From: Actinotalea alkalitolerans
Lineage (GTDB): Bacteria; Actinomycetota; Actinomycetes; Actinomycetales; Cellulomonadaceae
Length of the DNA stretch: 64,000 nt
Assembly: GCF_023369855.1 (NCBI RefSeq)
Contig: NZ_JAMBPP010000004.1
Span: 186,001-250,000 of the forward strand
Direction: 5' to 3'
Below the pieces are notes generated by a model. It worked only from the letters and a program-made list of their open reading frames with translations, was not told where the DNA came from and did not search any database. This document shows positions 2,738-22,993 of this stretch, piece after piece. Made by a program: the position numbers and the translations under genes. Within the stretch, counting starts at the first letter, position 1. Every line of letters starts with the position of its first letter.

Positions 2738-3480
2738 GTACCCAGGAGACCCCCGAGCGGCGGACGGGGGAGCCTGCACCGGTCGACCATCGCCATGCCT
2801 GGCGGTGGGTCGCGACCGTGATCGGCGTCCTGGTCCTGGGCATGGTGGCCGGGCCCTGGGCCTATGCCCGCTGGATCGCCCCGGACGCGCCCGGACCGTT
2901 CGCGCTCAGCACACCAGCTCCTGTCGAGGAGACCGAGGCACCGGTCGACGATCCTGACGACGACGTCGTCGAGGGGACATGGGTGGTGGGGGAGGGCTCG
3001 CAGGCCGGCTACCGGCTCGCCGAGGTGCTCTCGGGGCAGCCGGTCACCGTGGTGGGCCGTGGCAGCGAGGTCAGCGGCACCGTGGTCGTCGCCGGCGGGC
3101 AGCTGGTCGAGGCCCAGATCGTCGTCGGGGTCGCCTCGATCTCGACCGACGAGTCGGCGCGTGACGCCTACTTCCGCCGCGCGCTGGACACCAGCACGTA
3201 CCCGGAGTCGACCTTCGTCCTGGACACGCCGGTGGACCTGGGCCCGCTGGCGTCGCAGGGGACCGCCGTCGAGCTGCAGGCCGTGGGGACGTTGACGCTG
3301 CGTGGTGTCGCCCGGCAGGTCACCGCGAGCCTGGAGGTCCAGCGCACCGCCGACGGCGTCGAGGTCGCGGGCCAGGTCCCGCTGACCCTGGCGGATCACG
3401 GTCTGACCGCACCGGACCTGGGTTCGGTCACGGTCGAGCCGACCGGCTCGGTCGAGCTGCACCTGCTGCTCACGCGCTGA
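2734..3480 (+). CDS. YceI-family lipocalin-like protein with N-terminal membrane helix
   Basis: This 248-aa protein overlaps copC by 4 nt (GTGA). One membrane segment (about residues 28-50) precedes an acidic linker and a YceI domain from about residue 85 to the end, with the typical signatures FRRALDTSTYPESTF and LTLRGVARQVTASLEV. YceI domains are beta-barrels that bind long isoprenoid or lipid-like ligands outside the cytoplasm. The pairing with CopC suggests a small envelope operon. No enzyme motif is visible and the ligand is unknown. Confidence 0.83.
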   Translation: MSTQETPERRTGEPAPVDHRHAWRWVATVIGVLVLGMVAGPWAYARWIAPDAPGPFALSTPAPVEETEAPVDDPDDDVVEGTWVVGEGSQAGYRLAEVLSGQPVTVVGRGSEVSGTVVVAGGQLVEAQIVVGVASISTDESARDAYFRRALDTSTYPESTFVLDTPVDLGPLASQGTAVELQAVGTLTLRGVARQVTASLEVQRTADGVEVAGQVPLTLADHGLTAPDLGSVTVEPTGSVELHLLLTR

Positions 3481-3520
3481 GCACCGCGACGGCTGCTCCG
3501 TCCGCGCGGCCACCCGTATC

Positions 3521-3534
3521 TTCGGGTGTCCGAA
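3521..3534. promoter_or_regulatory. Inverted repeat TTCGG-GTGT-CCGAA, candidate operator of the metal-transport operon
   Basis: A perfect 5-bp inverted repeat with a 4-bp spacer lies just upstream of a plausible promoter: TTGCCC at 3542-3547, a 17-nt spacer, and TAGACA at 3565-3570, which is 6 nt from the ATG at 3577. As the operon encodes its own DtxR-type repressor, this is the best candidate site for it. That assignment is inference. Confidence 0.45.
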
Positions 3535-3576
3535 CTTTCGTTTGCCCCGGGAGCACGGGCAGGGTAGACAGACCCC

Positions 3577-4515
3577 ATGCTCAGGCGCCGGCTCGCCAGT
3601 CTGCTGGTTCTCGCCGGCTGCGCCTCGGTCGGCTGCAGCGCCTCGGTGGACGCTGCGGAGCCGTCCGCCTCCCGCTCCTCGGCGGTGCCCGTGGTGCTGA
3701 CCACCTTCACCGTCCTGGCCGACATGGTGCAGGTGGTGGGAGGACCGCAGGTGCAGGTCGAGTCCCTCCTCGAGGTGGGACGGGAGGTGCACGGGTACGA
3801 GCCCACCCCGGCGGACCTGCGGCGCGCCGCGGGGGCCGATCTCCTGATCGCGAACGGACTGGGGCTCGAGGGGTGGCTCGACGGCCTCCTCGCGCCCCTC
3901 GACCTTCCTCGGGTGACCCTGACCGACAGGATCGAGCCGATCCTCGTGCGGTCCGGGGAGTACGAGGGACTGGCGAACCCCCACGCATGGATGTCACCGG
4001 TGGTCGGCCAGCAGTACGTCGAGGCGATCGCCGACGCCCTCGCGACGCTCGCCCCCCGTCACAGCCGGCTCTTCGCCGAGCGGGCCGAGGCGTACTCGGT
4101 GACCCTCGACGAGCTCCATGACCAGACGGTCGAGCGGCTCGCGACGGTGCCGACGAGTGCGCGGGTCCTGGTCACCTGCGAGGGTGCCTTCTCCTACCTG
4201 GCCCGTGACGCCGGTCTCGAGGAGGTCTACCTGTGGGCGGTCAACGCCGACCGGCAGGGAACCCCCCGGCAGGTGGCGGACGCGATCACGACGGTGCGTG
4301 ACCGCGGCGTCCCCGCGGTGTTCTGCGAGTCGACCGTCTCCTCGACCGGGCAGGAGCAGGTCGCCCGCGAGTCGGGCGCCACCTTCGGTGGCGTGCTGTA
4401 CGTGGACTCGCTGTCCGAGGCGGACGGCCCCGTCCCCACCTACCTGGACCTGCTGCGCCACGACGTCGAGGTCATCGTCGCAGGCCTGACCCGGTCCCAG
4501 GAGGTGGTGGGGTGA
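3577..4515 (+). CDS. mntA: Metal ABC transporter substrate-binding lipoprotein, Mn/Fe-type
   Basis: This 312-aa cluster A-I (TroA/PsaA) solute-binding protein has a lipobox LAGC with Cys15 as the likely lipidated residue. Metal ligands expected for the family are visible: His in EVHGYEPTP, His in NPHAWM, Glu in VTCEGAFSYL and Asp in YVDSLS. Glu at the third position is the pattern of Mn/Fe-binding members (PsaA, MntC); Zn-binding members carry His. There is no His-rich loop, unlike the second binding protein at 43.9-45.0 kb. The gene heads a four-gene operon with 4-nt overlaps: ATPase, permease, DtxR regulator. The start has a leaderless-like hexamer TAGACA 6 nt upstream. Confidence 0.85.
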   Translation: MLRRRLASLLVLAGCASVGCSASVDAAEPSASRSSAVPVVLTTFTVLADMVQVVGGPQVQVESLLEVGREVHGYEPTPADLRRAAGADLLIANGLGLEGWLDGLLAPLDLPRVTLTDRIEPILVRSGEYEGLANPHAWMSPVVGQQYVEAIADALATLAPRHSRLFAERAEAYSVTLDELHDQTVERLATVPTSARVLVTCEGAFSYLARDAGLEEVYLWAVNADRQGTPRQVADAITTVRDRGVPAVFCESTVSSTGQEQVARESGATFGGVLYVDSLSEADGPVPTYLDLLRHDVEVIVAGLTRSQEVVG

Positions 4516-15639: not shown

Positions 15640-16647
15640 ATGCCCCCTGGGATCCGTCGCCCTGCGTCGCCGTCGGCCCGCACCGCCTCCTGGGACGAGG
15701 TGACGGTCGCTCCTGTCGTGCTCGTGACGGGCAGTGAGCTGCTGCTCGCCGAGCGTGCGGTCGACCGGTTGATCGCTCAGGCGCGTACCGCCGAGCCGTC
15801 GCTCGAGGTGACGCGGATCGAGGCGGCCGGCTACCAGCCCGGCCAGCTGCGGGTCGCTACCAGCCCGTCGCTGTTCGACGAGGCGCGGGTGGTGGTCGTC
15901 GAGGGTCTCCAGAGTGCGACGGAGGTCGCCCTCGCCGAGGTCGCCGCTCAGCTCCTCGAGCCCTCCGAGGACGTCGTGCTGATCCTTCAGCACGGCGGTG
16001 GCGTTCGCGGCAAGAAGACCCTCGACGCGATCCGTGCCGCAGGGGCGGTGCTGGTGCAGTGCGACCCGATCAAGCGCGATGCGGACAAGGTGGCGTTCGC
16101 GGCGGCCGAGCTCGCACGTGCGGGCCGCAAGGCTGAGCCTGCCGCGCTGCGTGCGCTGGTCGAGGCCTGCGGCAACGACCTCCGTGATCTCGCCGCAGCG
16201 TGCTCGCAGTTGGTCGCCGACACCAGTGGTCGTGTCACGGCCGAGATGGTCAGCCAGTACCACGGCGGCAGGGTCGAGGCGACGGGTTTCCGTGTCGCTG
16301 ACGCAGCCGTCGACGGTCGGTCCGGCGATGCCGTCGCACTTCTCCGGCACGCGTTGGCCACAGGCTCGGACCCGGTCCCGGTGGTCGCGGCTCTCGCGGC
16401 GAAGCTGCGCACGCTGGCCAAGGTCGCGGCCGCGCGTGGCCGAGGCATCGACCCGGTACGGGACCTCGGTCTGGCGCCGTGGCAGGTGGACCGCGCTCGC
16501 AAGGACCTGGTCGGCTGGACGCCCGAGGCGTTGGCCGAGGCGATCTCTGCGGTCGCTCAGGCCGACGCCGAGGTCAAGGGTGCCGGACGTGATCCTGTGT
16601 TCGCCGTGGAACGTGCCGTGCTGCGCGTGGCCGCCGCCGCCTCCTGA
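15640..16647 (+). CDS. holA: DNA polymerase III delta subunit
   Basis: This 335-aa clamp-loader delta subunit has the expected start APVVLVTGSELLLAERAVDRL, the central VVVVEGLQSATE and the C-terminal collar region ending AVERAVLRVAAAAS. It loads the beta sliding clamp together with delta-prime and gamma/tau. ATG at 15640 is chosen because GAGGCT lies 6 nt upstream, the leaderless pattern seen through the window; GTG at 15586 would add 18 residues of low family likeness. Its position after comEC is conserved in actinobacteria. Confidence 0.92.
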   Translation: MPPGIRRPASPSARTASWDEVTVAPVVLVTGSELLLAERAVDRLIAQARTAEPSLEVTRIEAAGYQPGQLRVATSPSLFDEARVVVVEGLQSATEVALAEVAAQLLEPSEDVVLILQHGGGVRGKKTLDAIRAAGAVLVQCDPIKRDADKVAFAAAELARAGRKAEPAALRALVEACGNDLRDLAAACSQLVADTSGRVTAEMVSQYHGGRVEATGFRVADAAVDGRSGDAVALLRHALATGSDPVPVVAALAAKLRTLAKVAAARGRGIDPVRDLGLAPWQVDRARKDLVGWTPEALAEAISAVAQADAEVKGAGRDPVFAVERAVLRVAAAAS

Positions 16648-16683
16648 GGGCACCGCTGGGTCACCTGAGGCACTGCTGGGTCA
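16643..16683. repeat. Tandem direct repeat at the holA stop codon
   Basis: CCTGAGGGCACCGCTGGGTCA (16643-16663) is repeated at once as CCTGAGGCACTGCTGGGTCA (16664-16683), with one substitution and one deletion. The first copy contains the holA stop. It looks like a recent slippage or duplication product of no obvious function. Confidence 0.6.
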
Positions 16684-17068
16684 ACCGGGCCACCACTGCG
16701 CGCTCCCTCACCACAGGGGTGTCTGCGCGCCGTCACTGACCCGAGGTCCTTGGCGGGCGGCGTCCCCCTGCCACCCGGCCCCGGCCTGGCCTGCACGCGG
16801 AGCGCAGGTCTGACCGACCCGCGCCCACCTGTGCGCACCCGTGCCCACCCGCACCCAGGGTGCGTCCCGACGGCTGGGCGACGACGCCTGATCATGTGCC
16901 CGGAGTCATTCTGGATGTGACAGGCGAGATCCGGCTCGTCGAGCAACCGCGTCGGTGGCAGACATCGTTCACGGTCGATACGCGCGGATTATCCCTAAAT
17001 CACCTCAAAAGTGCACCGGGAACTCGTCAAGTTACCAGGTCAGGAGTGGTGCATTTCCGGAGGAATGC
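16684..17068. other. Long intergenic region upstream of the peptide gene
   Basis: This is the longest gene-free stretch of the window. Its first part is C-rich and low in complexity (CCCACC/GCACCC runs at about 16822-16865). From about 16980 to 17068 the base composition turns clearly AT-richer than anywhere nearby (ATTATCCCTAAATCACCTC, AAAAGTGCACC), which suits a regulated promoter or protein-binding region. I find no convincing gene or structured RNA here. Confidence 0.6.
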
Positions 17069-17087
17069 TGTCATAGTGGTCATGACA
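17069..17087. promoter_or_regulatory. Operator-like inverted repeat TGTCAT-N7-ATGACA at the peptide-gene promoter
   Basis: Perfect 6-bp arms are separated by AGTGGTC. The left half contains an extended -10-like TG-T-CATAGT (17069-17077), which would place the transcript start near 17084 and a 45-nt leader before the peptide ATG. A repressor bound here would cover the promoter. The adjacent XRE protein is the natural candidate; this is inference. Confidence 0.5.
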
Positions 17088-17128
17088 ACGCGATGCCGAC
17101 GCGTCGCCATCTACCCGAGGAGAACACC

Positions 17129-17260
17129 ATGTCCCGCATCGCCAAGACCTTCGCAGCGTCCGCCCTCGCACTCGGCCTGGCCTTCGCGGGTGCTGCCGTC
17201 GCGATACCTGCCGAGGCGGACCTCATCAACGCCGGTCCGGCAGGGTGCTGCCGCAACTGA
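17129..17260 (+). CDS. Small secreted peptide precursor (43 aa) ending in GCCRN
   Basis: ATG at 17129 has a good ribosome site (GAGGAG, 7-8 nt upstream). The product begins MSRIAKTF and runs into a hydrophobic core (about residues 8-25), a clear Sec signal. Possible signal-peptidase sites are after AVA (residue 25) or AEA (residue 30). They would release an 18- or 13-residue peptide ending NAGPAGCCRN, with two adjacent cysteines near the C-terminus. I do not recognise the family. An HTH-TPR regulator starts 105 nt downstream on the same strand, and an inverted repeat covers the promoter. The arrangement suggests a secreted signalling peptide or a modified peptide product. No modification enzyme or transporter gene is adjacent. 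Confidence 0.7.
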   Translation: MSRIAKTFAASALALGLAFAGAAVAIPAEADLINAGPAGCCRN

Positions 17261-17350
17261 CGGCGGGTCGCACGGTGCATCCGATCCCGCCGAGGAACAT
17301 TTCACCCGGACGGGCGACGTGGGAGCGGTGCGTCCGGCCGGAGTCACGGC

Positions 17351-17377
17351 TAGAGTTACCGACTGTGACTGAACTCT
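17351..17377 (+). promoter_or_regulatory. Promoter hexamer and inverted repeat at the start of the XRE-TPR gene
   Basis: TAGAGT (17351-17356) lies 8 nt before the GTG at 17365. It overlaps the left arm of AGAGTT-N14-AACTCT (17352-17357 and 17372-17377), which is centred on the start codon. This arrangement would allow autoregulation. With 6-bp arms and a long spacer, chance occurrence cannot be excluded. Confidence 0.35.
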
Positions 17378-18711
17378 CAGAGCGTCTCCATGCAGAGCGC
17401 ACCCGCGCAGGGCTGTCTCAGACCGCACTCGCCGGTGACGACTTCTCGCCGAGCTACATCTCGCTGATCGAGGCAGGGCGGCGGGTCCCCACCGACGGCG
17501 CTCTGAAGATCCTCGCGGACCGTCTCGGGACCACGTCGGACTACCTCCGTTACGGCGACAAGGCCCCCAGCGAGGAGAGGGCACGCCTGGAGATCGGCTT
17601 CGCCAAGCTCGCCCTGGCGAACGGTTCGCCGGAGGAGGCGCGCGACAGGCTCGAGCAGCTCGACCTGTCGACGATCGCACCTCGGCACCATCCTGAGGCG
17701 TTGCACGCGCTCGCCCGCGCCCATGAGGCGATGGGTGATCTCGAGCGGTCCGTCGAGATCCTCGAGCCGCTGCTCGCCGATGCCCGCACGAAGGGCCGCT
17801 GGCTCGACGCCGCGGTGCTCGCGACCGACCTCGTCGGCTCGTACCTCGAGGCGGGCGACCTCCACCACAGCGTCGAGCTCGGCGAGCAGGTGCTTGCCGA
17901 GCTCGAGCGGGAAGGTGTCTCAGGGACGGACGAGCACCTGCGTCTCGCGTCGACCCTTCTGTGGGCCTACCACCAGCGCGGCGACCTGCTCTTCGCCGCG
18001 CACCGGGCGGCCTCCCTGCTGAGGTTGGTCGACACGACGGGGACCCCTCGCGGGCGCGGGAGCATCTACTGGAACGCGGCGCTCATCGCCGAGGCCCGTC
18101 AGGACTACCACGAGGCCCAGCGACTCACCGAGCGGGCACTGGCCTATCTCTCCGAGGCCGCGTCGAGCCGCGACGTCCCACGCCTGCGGCAGGTCTACGG
18201 CTGGCTGCTCCTGCGGACCGATCCGCCTCGGCCCACCGAGGCGCTCGAGCACCTCGGCACCGCCGCTGAAGAGCTTGCCGTGGTGGGCTCCGAGGTCGAT
18301 GTCGCGAAGTGCGACATCGAGCGAGGCCGTGCCTATCTGATGCTCGGTGAGCCGGCGGCAGCCCAGCGGGCGGCGCAGGATGCGCTCGAGCGGCTCGGGG
18401 AGAGCCCACGGCTCGACTCGTGCGACGCCCACATGGTCCTGGGCGACGCCTTGCTCGCCCTCGGCGACGACGAGGGCGCCAAGCGCTCCCTCCAGTGGGC
18501 CGCCGACATGCTCGGCATGATGGCGGCGAACAGGCAGTCGGCCGTCGTGTGGCGTGCGCTGGGAGACAGGATGCTGCGCCACCACGATGTCGCCGGTGCG
18601 GCCAACGCCTACGAGCGGGCGTTGAGCGAGGTTGGGGTTCGTCGCGCGATCACGCCGGTTCCGCCGACGCCGGTCGCGGACCGGTCCGACCAGCAGCAGG
18701 CCACCCGCTAG
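17365..18711 (+). CDS. XRE-type HTH regulator with about nine TPR repeats
   Basis: This 448-aa protein has an N-terminal Cro/C1 helix-turn-helix (about residues 3-62; LSQTALAGDDFSPSYISLIE). About nine tetratricopeptide-like helical pairs then fill residues 75-440, for example ALHALARAHEAMGDLERSVE and AKCDIERGRAYLMLGEPAAA. This HTH-plus-TPR plan is shared by RRNPP peptide receptors of Firmicutes and by some actinobacterial regulators. GTG at 17365 is used because the HTH begins directly there and a TAGAGT hexamer precedes it. The neighbouring 43-aa exported peptide makes a peptide-sensing role attractive, but no ligand can be shown from sequence. A 25-bp hairpin ends the unit. Confidence 0.85.
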   Translation: MTELSERLHAERTRAGLSQTALAGDDFSPSYISLIEAGRRVPTDGALKILADRLGTTSDYLRYGDKAPSEERARLEIGFAKLALANGSPEEARDRLEQLDLSTIAPRHHPEALHALARAHEAMGDLERSVEILEPLLADARTKGRWLDAAVLATDLVGSYLEAGDLHHSVELGEQVLAELEREGVSGTDEHLRLASTLLWAYHQRGDLLFAAHRAASLLRLVDTTGTPRGRGSIYWNAALIAEARQDYHEAQRLTERALAYLSEAASSRDVPRLRQVYGWLLLRTDPPRPTEALEHLGTAAEELAVVGSEVDVAKCDIERGRAYLMLGEPAAAQRAAQDALERLGESPRLDSCDAHMVLGDALLALGDDEGAKRSLQWAADMLGMMAANRQSAVVWRALGDRMLRHHDVAGAANAYERALSEVGVRRAITPVPPTPVADRSDQQQATR

Positions 18712-18888: not shown

Positions 18889-18941
18889 GGACGAGACAGC
18901 GAAGGCGTCACCCGATGGGTGACGCCTTCGCTGTCTCGTCC
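18889..18941. terminator. Very strong bidirectional terminator hairpin
   Basis: A perfect 25-bp stem (18889-18913 with 18917-18941) has a 3-nt loop GAT. It lies between the XRE-TPR gene (plus, ends 18711) and rpsT (minus, ends 18973), so it can serve both strands. It is 178 nt beyond the plus-strand stop but only 32 nt beyond the rpsT stop, so it is mainly the rpsT terminator. The 261-nt gap holds nothing else I recognise. Confidence 0.85.
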
Positions 18942-18972: not shown

Positions 18973-19233
18973 TCAGAGGCCGGCGACCTGCTTGGCGAGT
19001 GCCGACTTGCGGTTGGCCGCCTGGTTCTCGTGGATGACGCCCTTGCTCACGGCCTTGTCGAGCTTGGTCGACGCCTCGCGGAGAGCGGTGGATGCGGCGT
19101 CCTTGTCACCGGCCGAGACGGCCTCCTTCACCCGACGCACGTGCGTCTTGAGCTCGGACTTGACCGCCTTGTTGCGCAGGCGGGCGATCTCGTTGGTACG
19201 GATGCGCTTGATCTGGGACTTGATGTTCGCCAC
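18973..19233 (-). CDS. rpsT: Small-subunit ribosomal protein bS20
   Basis: This 86-aa basic protein starts [15 protein letters not shown] and has the long-helix pattern of bS20 ([14 protein letters not shown] ... [23 protein letters not shown]). It binds 16S rRNA at the base of the 30S body early in assembly. It stands alone on the minus strand, with a strong terminator just downstream and a 199-nt upstream region that it shares with the end of the dodecin gene. Confidence 0.97.
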
Positions 19234-19432
19234 GTGTGGACTTCCTATGTGTGTTCGCCGGAGCGATCTGACAGGTCGTAGAGGGCGTGCTCAGCCCCGG
19301 GACTGGGGCGTGGGGACACCCGCGGGAAGGAGCTGGGCTAGTGCCCGCCGACCTGGGCGGACACGCGAATCACGATAGTAGCAGTCGGACCACGACCCCA
19401 GCGACCTCCGCCTCTCGTCGGATCCGCCGGTG

Positions 19433-19636
19433 CTAGTCGAGGACGAAGGTGATCTCGAGCATGACCTGATAGGTCGTGATCTCCCCGTCGGTGACCTCGA
19501 CCTTCTGCTCCTTGACCCAGGCCCCCTGCACGTTGCGCAGGGTCTGGGTGGCACGTGCGATCCCTTCGCGGATCGCGTCGTCGAAGCTGGTCTGCGAGCG
19601 CGAGCTGATCTGCGTGACGCGTGCGACGGTCGACAT
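19433..19636 (-). CDS. Dodecin (flavin-binding small protein)
   Basis: This 67-aa protein reads MSTVARVTQISSRSQTSF and later NVQGAWVKEQKVEVTDGEI, the dodecin fold signature, ending YQVMLEITFVLD. Trp in GAWV is the residue that stacks on flavin in known dodecins. Dodecins form 12-mers that store or buffer FMN or riboflavin. The gene is monocistronic on the minus strand. Confidence 0.9.
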   Translation of the reverse strand: MSTVARVTQISSRSQTSFDDAIREGIARATQTLRNVQGAWVKEQKVEVTDGEITTYQVMLEITFVLD

Positions 19637-19836: not shown

Positions 19837-21723
19837 TTGTCCCCGATCCCCAGCGCAGCGCTGAACGCGCGCATCCAGCCCGCGGCGACGCCGCCCGAGC
19901 TGCTGCGCAACTTCTGCATCATCGCCCACATCGACCACGGCAAGTCCACCTTGGCCGACCGCATGCTGCAGCTGACGGGTGTGGTCGACGACCGCGCGAT
20001 GCGAGCCCAGTACCTGGACCGGATGGACATCGAGCGCGAGCGTGGCATCACGATCAAGTCGCAGGCCGTCCGCATGCCCTGGGGGGTCACCGGTCCCACG
20101 GGCGAGGTCGCGGCCTACGCCTTGAACATGATCGACACCCCTGGGCACGTGGACTTCACCTACGAGGTGTCGCGGTCGCTGGCCGCCTGCGAGGGCGCGG
20201 TCCTCCTGGTGGATGCCGCTCAGGGCATCGAGGCTCAGACACTTGCCAACCTGTACCTGGCGATGGAGAACGACCTCCAGATCATCCCGGTCCTGAACAA
20301 GATCGACCTGCCCGCGGCCCAGCCCGAGAAGTACGCCGAGGAGATTGCTGGTCTGGTCGGCGGGGACCCGGCCGACGTCCTGCGGGTCTCGGGCAAGACC
20401 GGAGCGGGCGTCCTGGAGCTGCTCGACCGCATCGTCGAGCTCGTCCCGGCGCCGCAGGGTGACGCCGCGGCACCGGCGCGCGCGATGATCTTCGACTCGG
20501 TGTACGACTCGTACCGGGGAGTGGTGACCTACGTCCGTGTGGTCGACGGCCACCTGAGCCCCCGAGAGAAGATCGTGATGATGTCCACCCGGGCGACCCA
20601 CGAGCTGCTCGAGATCGGGGTGATCTCACCCGAGCCGTCGCCCACCAAGGGGCTGGGTGTCGGAGAGGTCGGCTACCTGATCACCGGGGTCAAGGACGTG
20701 CGGCAGTCCAAGGTCGGCGACACGGTCACCAACGCGAGCAAGCCCGCGGCCTCGGCCCTCGCCGAGTACCACGACCCGCGCCCGATGGTCTTCTCCGGTC
20801 TGTACCCGCTCGACGGCTCGGACTACCCGGTGCTGCGCGACGCGCTGGACAAGCTCAAGCTCAACGACGCGGCCCTGGTCTACGAGCCCGAGACGTCGGT
20901 GGCGCTGGGCTTCGGCTTCCGTGTCGGCTTCCTCGGTCTGCTGCACCTGGAGATCGTGCGGGAGCGGCTCGAGCGAGAGTTCGACCTCGCGCTGATCTCC
21001 ACCGCCCCGAACGTGGTCTACGAGGTGACCATGGAAGACCGCGGGGTGATCACGGTGACCAACCCGAGCGAGTTCCCGGGCGGGAAGATCGCCGAGGTCC
21101 GCGAGCCGGTCGTCAAGGCGACGATCCTGTGCCCGAGCGAGTTCATCGGGTCGGTGATGGAGCTCTGCCAGACGCGCCGAGGTGACCTGCAGGGGATGGA
21201 CTACCTCTCTGCCGAGCGGGTGGAGATGCGCTACATGCTGCCTCTCGCCGAGATCGTCTTCGACTTCTTCGACCAGCTGAAGTCCAAGACCCGCGGCTAC
21301 GCCTCGCTGGACTACGAGCCGGTCGGCGAGCAGGCCGCGGCGCTCGTCAAGGTCGACATCCTGCTCCAGGGTGAGCAGGTGGACGCCTTCAGCGCGATCG
21401 TGCACAAGGACAAGGCGTACGCCTACGGCGTGATGATGGCCGGCAAGCTCAAGGACCTCATCCCGCGCCAGCAGTTCGAGGTGCCCATCCAGGCTGCGAT
21501 CGGGGCGCGCGTGATCGCGCGCGAGACGATCCGCGCGATGCGCAAGGACGTCCTGGCCAAGTGCTACGGCGGTGACATCAGTCGCAAGCGCAAGCTCCTC
21601 GAGAAGCAGAAGGAGGGCAAGAAGCGCATGAAGACCATCGGTCGGGTGGACGTCCCGCAGGAGGCCTTCATCGCAGCCCTGTCCTCGGACGACTCGGGCA
21701 AGGACGCCAAGGCCAAGAAGTGA
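19837..21723 (+). CDS. lepA: Elongation factor 4 (LepA) GTPase
   Basis: This 628-aa translational GTPase has G1 AHIDHGKST (about residues 30-38), G2 RGITIK, G3 DTPGHVDF and G4 NKIDLP. Domain II, the EF-G-like domains and the LepA-specific C-terminus ([23 protein letters not shown]) follow. EF4 acts on stalled or mistranslocated ribosomes. TTG at 19837 gives [15 protein letters not shown] before the conserved [10 protein letters not shown] and has GGAG 10 nt upstream; GTG at 19774 would add 21 residues and has no better support. hemW follows 4 nt after the stop. Confidence 0.95.
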
Positions 21724-21727
21724 GCTC

Positions 21728-22993
21728 GTGAGTCCTGCGCTGCCCGATGGCGAGCCCGTGCCGCTGGACGGCGCGCTGCCCGCCTGGGTGCGACCCACGG
21801 CCGAGGTGGGTCCAGATCCGCACCGGGGGGTGGACCCACAGCTCGGGGTCTACGTGCACGTGCCGTTCTGCACGGTTCGCTGTGGCTACTGCGACTTCAA
21901 CACGTACACCGCGAGCGAGCTCGGCGGGGGCGCGAGCCAGTCCGAGTACGCCGCGACCGCAGTCCGTGAGGTCGAGCTCGCCGCCCGTGTGCTGGACGAG
22001 GCCGGCCGGGGTGGCCGACCGGTCAGCACGGTCTTCGTCGGTGGGGGGACTCCCACGGTGCTGCCGGTCGACGACCTCGCGCGGGTGCTCGACGCGATCA
22101 GCGGCGCATGGGGACTGGCACCGGGGGCAGAGATCACGACCGAGGCCAACCCGGACTCGGTCACTCCCGCCTCGCTCGGGCAGCTCGCCGCCGCAGGGTT
22201 CACCCGCGTGTCCTTCGGCATGCAGTCCGCGGTGCCCCACGTGCTCGCCACCCTGGAGCGCACCCACGACCCGGACCGCGTCCCCGAGGCCGTGCGGTGG
22301 GCCAAGGACGCCGGCCTGTCGGTGTCCCTGGATCTCATCTACGGCACACCGGGTGAGTCGCTGCACGACTGGCGCCGCTCGGTGGAGGCGGCCGTGGCCT
22401 GCGAGGTCGACCACGTCTCCGCCTATGCCCTGGTCGTGGAGCCCGGGACCCGGATGGCTGCGCAGGTGCGGCGGGGTGTCCTGACGCTGCCGGACCCGGA
22501 CGACCAGGCGACCAAGTACGAGCTCGTCGACGACCTGCTGACCGCGGCCGGCCTCGCGTGGTACGAGGTGAGCAACTGGGCCCGGACCCCCGAGGACGCC
22601 TGCCGTCACAACCTGGCCTACTGGCGGGGCGCGGACTGGTGGGGCGTGGGCCCGGGAGCGCACTCCCATGTCGGGGCGGGGGAGCGCGCGGTGCGCTGGT
22701 GGAACGTCAAGCACCCGCGGGCCTATGCGGGTCGGCTCGCCACGGGTCTGAGCCCTGCTGCGGGACGCGAGCTCCTGGGGTCCCCAGACGTGCGCCTCGA
22801 GCGGGTGATGCTGGGTGTCCGGATCCGCGACGGGCTGGATCTTGCCGAGCTCTCGGCGAGCGGGCGGACCGCGGTCGCCGGGCTGGTGGCGGACGGGCTG
22901 CTCGAGGGTGTCGCGGCGATCCGAGGGCGTGCGGTCCTGACCCGCCGGGGCAGGCTGCTGGCCGATGCGGTCGTCCGTGCGCTGACCGACTGA
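21728..22993 (+). CDS. hemW: Radical SAM heme chaperone / coproporphyrinogen III oxidase-like protein
   Basis: This 421-aa radical SAM protein has the cluster motif CTVRCGYC (CX3CX2C, about residues 48-55), GGGTPTVLP and the HemN-like TEANPDSVTP. The downstream region typical of HemW is present (YEVSNWARTPEDACRHNLAYWRG). The extra N-terminal Cys of true HemN is absent in the C-x3-C-x2-C-x-C position (YCDF), so a heme-trafficking HemW role is more likely than oxidase activity. It is translationally close to lepA (4-nt gap), as in many actinobacteria. A strong hairpin follows. Confidence 0.9.
   Translation: MSPALPDGEPVPLDGALPAWVRPTAEVGPDPHRGVDPQLGVYVHVPFCTVRCGYCDFNTYTASELGGGASQSEYAATAVREVELAARVLDEAGRGGRPVSTVFVGGGTPTVLPVDDLARVLDAISGAWGLAPGAEITTEANPDSVTPASLGQLAAAGFTRVSFGMQSAVPHVLATLERTHDPDRVPEAVRWAKDAGLSVSLDLIYGTPGESLHDWRRSVEAAVACEVDHVSAYALVVEPGTRMAAQVRRGVLTLPDPDDQATKYELVDDLLTAAGLAWYEVSNWARTPEDACRHNLAYWRGADWWGVGPGAHSHVGAGERAVRWWNVKHPRAYAGRLATGLSPAAGRELLGSPDVRLERVMLGVRIRDGLDLAELSASGRTAVAGLVADGLLEGVAAIRGRAVLTRRGRLLADAVVRALTD

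Follow-up and report, generated by a model that had tools for sequence, protein, structure and literature searches.

A small Cys-Cys peptide gene and an HTH-TPR regulator gene form a conserved pair in Actinotalea alkalitolerans and other actinobacteria and are a likely peptide-signaling cassette

RESULTS

A predicted propeptide gene lies upstream of an HTH-TPR regulator gene.

We analyzed a 64,000-nucleotide stretch of the Actinotalea alkalitolerans genome (contig NZ_JAMBPP010000004.1, positions 186,001 to 250,000), here called the window. We found the following features; positions are those of the window, and binding to the operators is putative.

16905 to 16921, either strand: operator O3, a third copy absent from the initial annotation, identified from sequence
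17070 to 17086, either strand: operator O2 at the peptide promoter, GTCATAGTGGTCATGAC
17117 to 17122, plus strand: ribosome-binding site GAGGAG of the peptide gene
17129 to 17260, plus strand: 43-aa Sec-type propeptide with the C terminus GPAGCCRN (sequence, homologues, codon constraint)
17204 to 17257, plus strand: possible mature 18-mer, suggested by AVA and AEA cleavage-like motifs
17246 to 17251, plus strand: codons of the invariant Cys-Cys (CC in 71/71 close homologues)
17343 to 17359, either strand: operator O1, conserved, one mismatch, 22 nt before the regulator start
17365 to 18711, plus strand: HTH-TPR regulator, 448 aa, GTG start, single copy in the genome (HTH and TPR models, structure model)

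The ORF at 17129 to 17260 translates as MSRIAKTFAASALALGLAFAGAAVAIPAEADLINAGPAGCCRN. We confirmed the good ribosome site and the 43-aa frame ending in GCCRN that had been reported, and its Sec-type signal is predicted from sequence; the signal character of all peptide ORFs was judged by charge and hydrophobicity only. In our reading, the propeptide would be cut after AVA or AEA to give the 18-mer or a 13-mer starting at 17219, the same two pieces that had been named earlier. The upstream region had been called unusually AT-rich. Its GC content is indeed 0.65 to 0.66, but 0.65 is also found at 19000 to 19499 and 21250 to 21749, so that little is left of the word unusual.

The XRE helix-turn-helix and TPR build ascribed to the regulator held up. 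The protein matched HTH_31 (E = 1.9e-10) and several TPR models over their cut-offs, and its AlphaFold2 model (mean pLDDT, 86.3; pTM, 0.69) shows an HTH and, after it, a helical superhelix. The window genome has a single copy of the gene, and the regulator was found in 19 of the 19 genus genomes searched, with one copy interrupted by a contig end. Upstream of the pair are comEC and holA, and downstream are rpsT, a dodecin-type gene, and lepA. Nothing beyond this neighborhood links the pair to competence through comEC, and we do not claim such a link.

The peptide and the regulator are a conserved pair.

A conserved peptide frame beside orthologous regulators had been named beforehand as a test of the pairing. 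We found the regulator (at E 1e-20) in 29 of 121 genomes of the same family. A match to the peptide profile that reached the CC end was present in all 29 of these genomes and in 0 of the 92 genomes without the regulator. Ten further family genomes matched only the front of the profile (up to model position 39 of 45), and these matches are inside ORFs of at least 150 codons.

We also scanned contigs for regulator homologues and refer to the 79 loci that were best among the matches listed as the named relatives. Every locus with a regulator of at least 51% identity (70/70 among the matches listed) has a CC peptide upstream on the same strand. The 70 closest loci among the matches listed come from Actinotalea, Cellulomonas, Pengzhenrongella, one Cellulosimicrobium-labelled record, and MAGs. 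The nine distant regulators among the matches listed (37 to 43% identity) each have a CC peptide as well. It is upstream on the same strand in a Nocardioidaceae MAG (L109, ending in ..SASALNVPCCRR) and an Actinomycetales MAG (L110), upstream and divergent in two MAGs (L111 and L112), Jiangella, and two Phytoactinopolyspora, and downstream on the opposite strand in Streptomyces sp. SID12488 and Longispora albida.

Under a uniform rule (a ribosome site, a signal-like start, and CC within the last 27 residues), we found a CC peptide beside 78 of the 79 named relatives among the matches listed, down to 37% identity; 71 of these 78 are upstream on the same strand, 5 are upstream on the opposite strand, and 2 are downstream on the opposite strand. 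The single miss among the matches listed (L046) has the peptide with a weak ribosome site. The same kind of rule returned 0/79 window tiles, 0/71 far-downstream segments, and 1/71 far-upstream segments (1/221 in total), and 0/420 CC peptides in shuffled sequences. The contig of the lone background match has a second receptor gene, directly beside the match. Among the matches listed, HolA is upstream in 68/79 and rpsT is downstream in 67/79 named relatives. In L109 to L117, neither is beside the regulator, and the linkage of peptide and regulator is still kept.

Codon-level conservation had also been named beforehand as a point on which the peptide might fail. The pN/pS ratio of the peptide genes was 0.48 (130 pairs, which are non-independent), and in ungapped pairs the true frame was the lowest, at 0.45 versus 1.19 and 1.95 in the two wrong frames. 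The peptide evolves as a protein, and the ORF at 17129 to 17260 is more than chance. We concluded that the 43-aa peptide and the HTH-TPR regulator are a conserved pair, an observation larger than the one first noted.

We aligned 71 close peptide homologues, the window included; L109 and L110 are left out of these counts and of the 71-locus operator counts below. CC is present in 71/71, the residue before it is Gly in 69/71, and the residue after it is Arg or Lys in 68/71. In the Cellulomonadaceae, the eight residues before CC are 41% identical and thus conserved, not diversified, which fits either one shared signal or a non-signal role. The first 20 residues of the 71 homologues are 32% identical, and the signal sequences differ among clades. 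This bears on an alternative in which the ligand of the regulator is the unexported, cytosolic propeptide and the readout is the cell's own export capacity or thiol state, not cell density. A re-import step would then be unnecessary, and the signal part and CC are the features common to the family. However, signal sequences that differ among clades do not favor this alternative, and hypervariability directly before CC, which we found in one genus (see below), fits recognition of the C terminus. We consider binding of the unexported propeptide improbable.

Palindromic operators are conserved at the peptide and regulator promoters.

The inverted repeats that had been reported over both promoters are present at O2 and O1, and both sites and O3 share the consensus GTCA-N9-TGAC. 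O1 is GTCACGGCTAGAGTTAC and spans a TAGAGT -10-like element at 17351 to 17356; the regulator mRNA is probably leaderless. Within the window, sites with up to one mismatch are not rare (42 versus 31.7 expected), and the weight of the operators therefore comes from their conservation across loci. The 71 loci together have 171 perfect GTCA-N9-TGAC sites, whereas 20 shuffles averaged 0.95 and never exceeded 4. Of these loci, 60 have a perfect site at the regulator, 53 have one at the peptide, 57 have one at the third place, and 31 have one at each of the three. The operator at the peptide is about 40 to 60 nt before the peptide start, and the third copy is about 140 to 205 nt farther up. The operator was not found in L109 and L110. 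The window also has a perfect GTCA-N9-TGAC at 18907 to 18923, within a hairpin-like repeat between the regulator gene and rpsT, which is probably coincidental.

In nearly all loci, an operator with a TAnnnT element inside it is 21 to 22 nt before the regulator start. This argues against reading the small ORF as an attenuator, a leader peptide that senses cysteine for the regulator gene; the idea comes from its position upstream on the same strand and from two neighboring Cys codons close to its end. With such an operator, the regulator gene has its own promoter. Furthermore, a simple scan found no terminator-like hairpin between the two genes, and RNA folding between them is not unusual (z = -1.25). 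A cysteine-responsive leader would be upstream on the same transcript, but 7/79 named loci among the matches listed have the small ORF downstream or on the other strand. We therefore rejected the attenuator, which we consider highly improbable.

The longer palindrome TGTCA-N9-TGACA is present at the peptide promoter in 18 of the 19 genus genomes. A genome-wide count of the strict operator in these 19 genomes gave 24 sites, of which 18 are the peptide promoters; the other 6 equal the 6 found with the reversed control. A looser pattern in eight genus genomes also gave, among the matches listed, non-locus matches that were few or near background. Across the 19 genus genomes and 18 other family genomes, operator matches outside the locus were few or near background, and we therefore do not propose a regulon beyond the locus. 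In two close relatives, an operator-like palindrome precedes a secreted GH10/CBM gene (L146 and L154, 1501 to 1517 in both); this gene is a possible extra target, and the support is too weak to claim it.

With strict operators no commoner than background elsewhere in the 19 genomes, the target with the best support is the peptide gene. The same result would suit an alternative in which the peptide is the product of the circuit: the regulator would sense something else and control an exported Cys-Cys peptide acting in metal or redox chemistry or as an antimicrobial. Vicinal cysteines could bind metal, and GCC[KR] is strongly conserved in the Cellulomonadaceae. However, operators head EAL-domain genes too, one genus has a mature segment that is hypervariable outside CC, and the receptor is of a peptide-binding build. 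We regard a peptide that is only the product as unlikely.

The third operator heads EAL-domain genes at Cellulomonas-type loci.

Among the matches listed, we found divergent upstream EAL-type genes at 55 of the 79 named loci, with two or more at 33; one further locus has an EAL-type gene downstream only, and one has them on both sides. The start codon of the EAL ORF is inside the third operator in 45 of the 55 loci among the matches listed, and in Cellulomonas the third operator usually contains the start codon of the divergent EAL-domain gene. Three proteins of the first type (E = 4e-12 to 4e-14) and one of the second type (E = 1.2e-12) reached the Pfam EAL cut-off. We take the first EAL protein of a pair to be mostly degenerate in its catalytic residues and the second to be intact. 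Since the operator heads these divergent genes, the circuit at Cellulomonas-type loci probably tunes cyclic-di-GMP. The window genome has no EAL gene at the locus, and no remnant was detected in 16401 to 17400; it keeps O3 despite this absence.

The operator-linked EAL proteins share an ARQ-x-I-F type start and an EAL domain with HDOD-EAL proteins, but no HDOD match was found in the four that we tested. An HDOD-EAL protein (L220) is encoded at another place in the window genome. Two Actinotalea have an EAL-type ORF downstream of the receptor gene and convergent with it (L040, 4417 to 5358; L051, 4553 to 5350).

Many receptor genes across the class have CC peptides, some of them hypervariable.

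Of the 394 genomes sampled from the class, 82, from 34 of 138 genera, matched a receptor profile (16 rows) at E 1e-40. Of the 109 profile-match places, one is the window, and we checked for the peptide at 69; the remaining 39 are for the most part low-scoring places or second copies in one family. The class-level loci overlap partly with the genomes of the named set. Under a strict rule, a CC peptide was called at 24/29 and 25/40 loci. The match at L292 was spurious, with an ORF at the usual place that lacks CC, and the count is therefore 48/69, not 49. The other 21/69 loci had no convincing CC peptide under the strict rule. Looser rules gave extra CC candidates at L263, L269, L298, and L304. 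No CC peptide was found at L259, L262, L265 (short contigs), L266, L271, L277, L281, L284, L286, and L307 or in the lower-scoring clade L300 to L303.

In one genus, we found the peptide in 15 of 15 genomes at a constant divergent position. Identity averages 59% over its first 28 residues but is 10% over the eight before the terminal CC, which differ in all 15. Two Cellulomonadaceae genomes have a paralogous HTH-TPR receptor gene followed by four tandem CC peptides. A hypervariable segment before CC and tandem peptides are both marks of peptide signals. Tandem propeptides occur in the RRNPP family too, according to PMC11343458.

The pair resembles RRNPP systems in plan.

The RRNPP(A) peptide quorum-sensing systems of Firmicutes include PlcR-PapR, Rgg, ComR, NprR, and AimR. 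As in these systems, a signal-type propeptide gene adjoins an HTH-TPR regulator gene. The regulator has the HTH and TPR domains of an RRNPP receptor and, at 448 aa, is within the range of 250 to 500 aa given in PMC10075063. Our receptor profile matched the HTH and first TPRs of PlcR (E = 1.4e-6). The regulator model matched PlcR-PapR7-DNA (E = 1.0e-5) at rank 43, whereas designed and eukaryotic TPR proteins matched better; by fold, RRNPP proteins are not nearer to the regulator than other TPR proteins are. A single-sequence search with the regulator found no RRNPP protein. The pairs differ from RRNPP systems further in that they are in Actinomycetota, their peptides have a near-fixed Cys-Cys motif, and in Cellulomonas they are linked to EAL-domain genes. 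The pair likely works like an RRNPP system. The NsdA family (NCBIfam NF053720) matched the TPR part of the regulator weakly (residues 194 to 418), at 19.8 bits versus a cut-off of 75, which does not make the regulator a member.

The pair is a likely pheromone gene and receptor gene.

The initial annotation read the locus as a candidate peptide-signaling cassette, and this reading gains support from the recurrent pairing, the codon constraint, the three gene arrangements, and the hypervariability in one genus. We infer that the peptide is the ligand of the regulator; the three arrangements and the hypervariable genus back this assignment. We consider it likely that the locus encodes a peptide pheromone and its cytosolic receptor, RRNPP-like and with local feedback. 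Since relatives across the class carry Cys-Cys peptides of their own, the window pair would be one member of an actinobacterial family of such pairs.

According to this model, the propeptide is predicted to be exported by Sec and would then be trimmed. A short C-terminal Cys-Cys piece would reenter the cell and bind the TPR superhelix of the regulator. The regulator would occupy GTCA-N9-TGAC at the peptide promoter and over its own -10-like element. The position of the operators suggests that peptide binding most likely releases the regulator from them, which would lift repression and give positive feedback; the opposite sign is possible. The same operator also heads the divergent EAL gene, or often two such genes, of Cellulomonas-type loci, where the signal probably acts on cyclic-di-GMP.

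A wider hypothesis, for which we see the case as evenly balanced, is that these pairs are class-wide pheromone systems of Actinomycetota. HTH-TPR receptors would pair with exported peptides in which the Cys-Cys anchor is nearly fixed and a specificity segment is, in some lineages, hypervariable. The Cellulomonas circuit would drive EAL proteins and so connect cell density with cyclic-di-GMP, and the Cys pair may redox-gate the signal, oxidized outside and reduced inside.

Actinobacterial signaling is mostly attributed to small molecules, and the same pairing in many actinobacteria points to an undescribed kind of peptide signaling there. We found no such actinobacterial peptide-receptor system in the PMC literature as searched (including portions of PMC9765709, PMC13220807, and PMC12700828), a scope that leaves out preprints and most subscription papers. 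In the portions consulted, the peptide-receptor survey PMC10075063 covers Firmicutes and viruses only, and PMC4748050 gives TPR among the predicted elements in some genera and has no such peptide pair. Should these pairs prove to be pheromone systems, direct tests of actinobacterial peptide communication become possible, since the ligands are encoded, short, and easily synthesized and the operators are ready reporters. If this is true in Cellulomonas, signaling there would be joined to EAL-domain proteins.

Other small ORFs accompany receptor genes.

At L280, L290, and L292, a signal-type ORF at the usual place, upstream on the opposite strand, ends in ..GWNHPG, ..GWGWPG, and ..PWGYPI, without CC; these ORFs are relatives of the hypervariable peptides. 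L300 to L303 have a conserved small ORF upstream on the same strand that starts with MQ[VG]KK/T. The four tandem signal-type ORFs of the two Cellulomonadaceae genomes end in ..SPCCK[SQ]A.. (L138, 3178 to 4053; L139, reverse strand, oriented 3168 to 4103). Some Jiangella-like loci (L249, L253, L254, and L255) carry a second CC ORF in the downstream flank, across the receptor gene from the first, ending in ..GSDFCC, ..GSDYCC, or ..GSLYCC.
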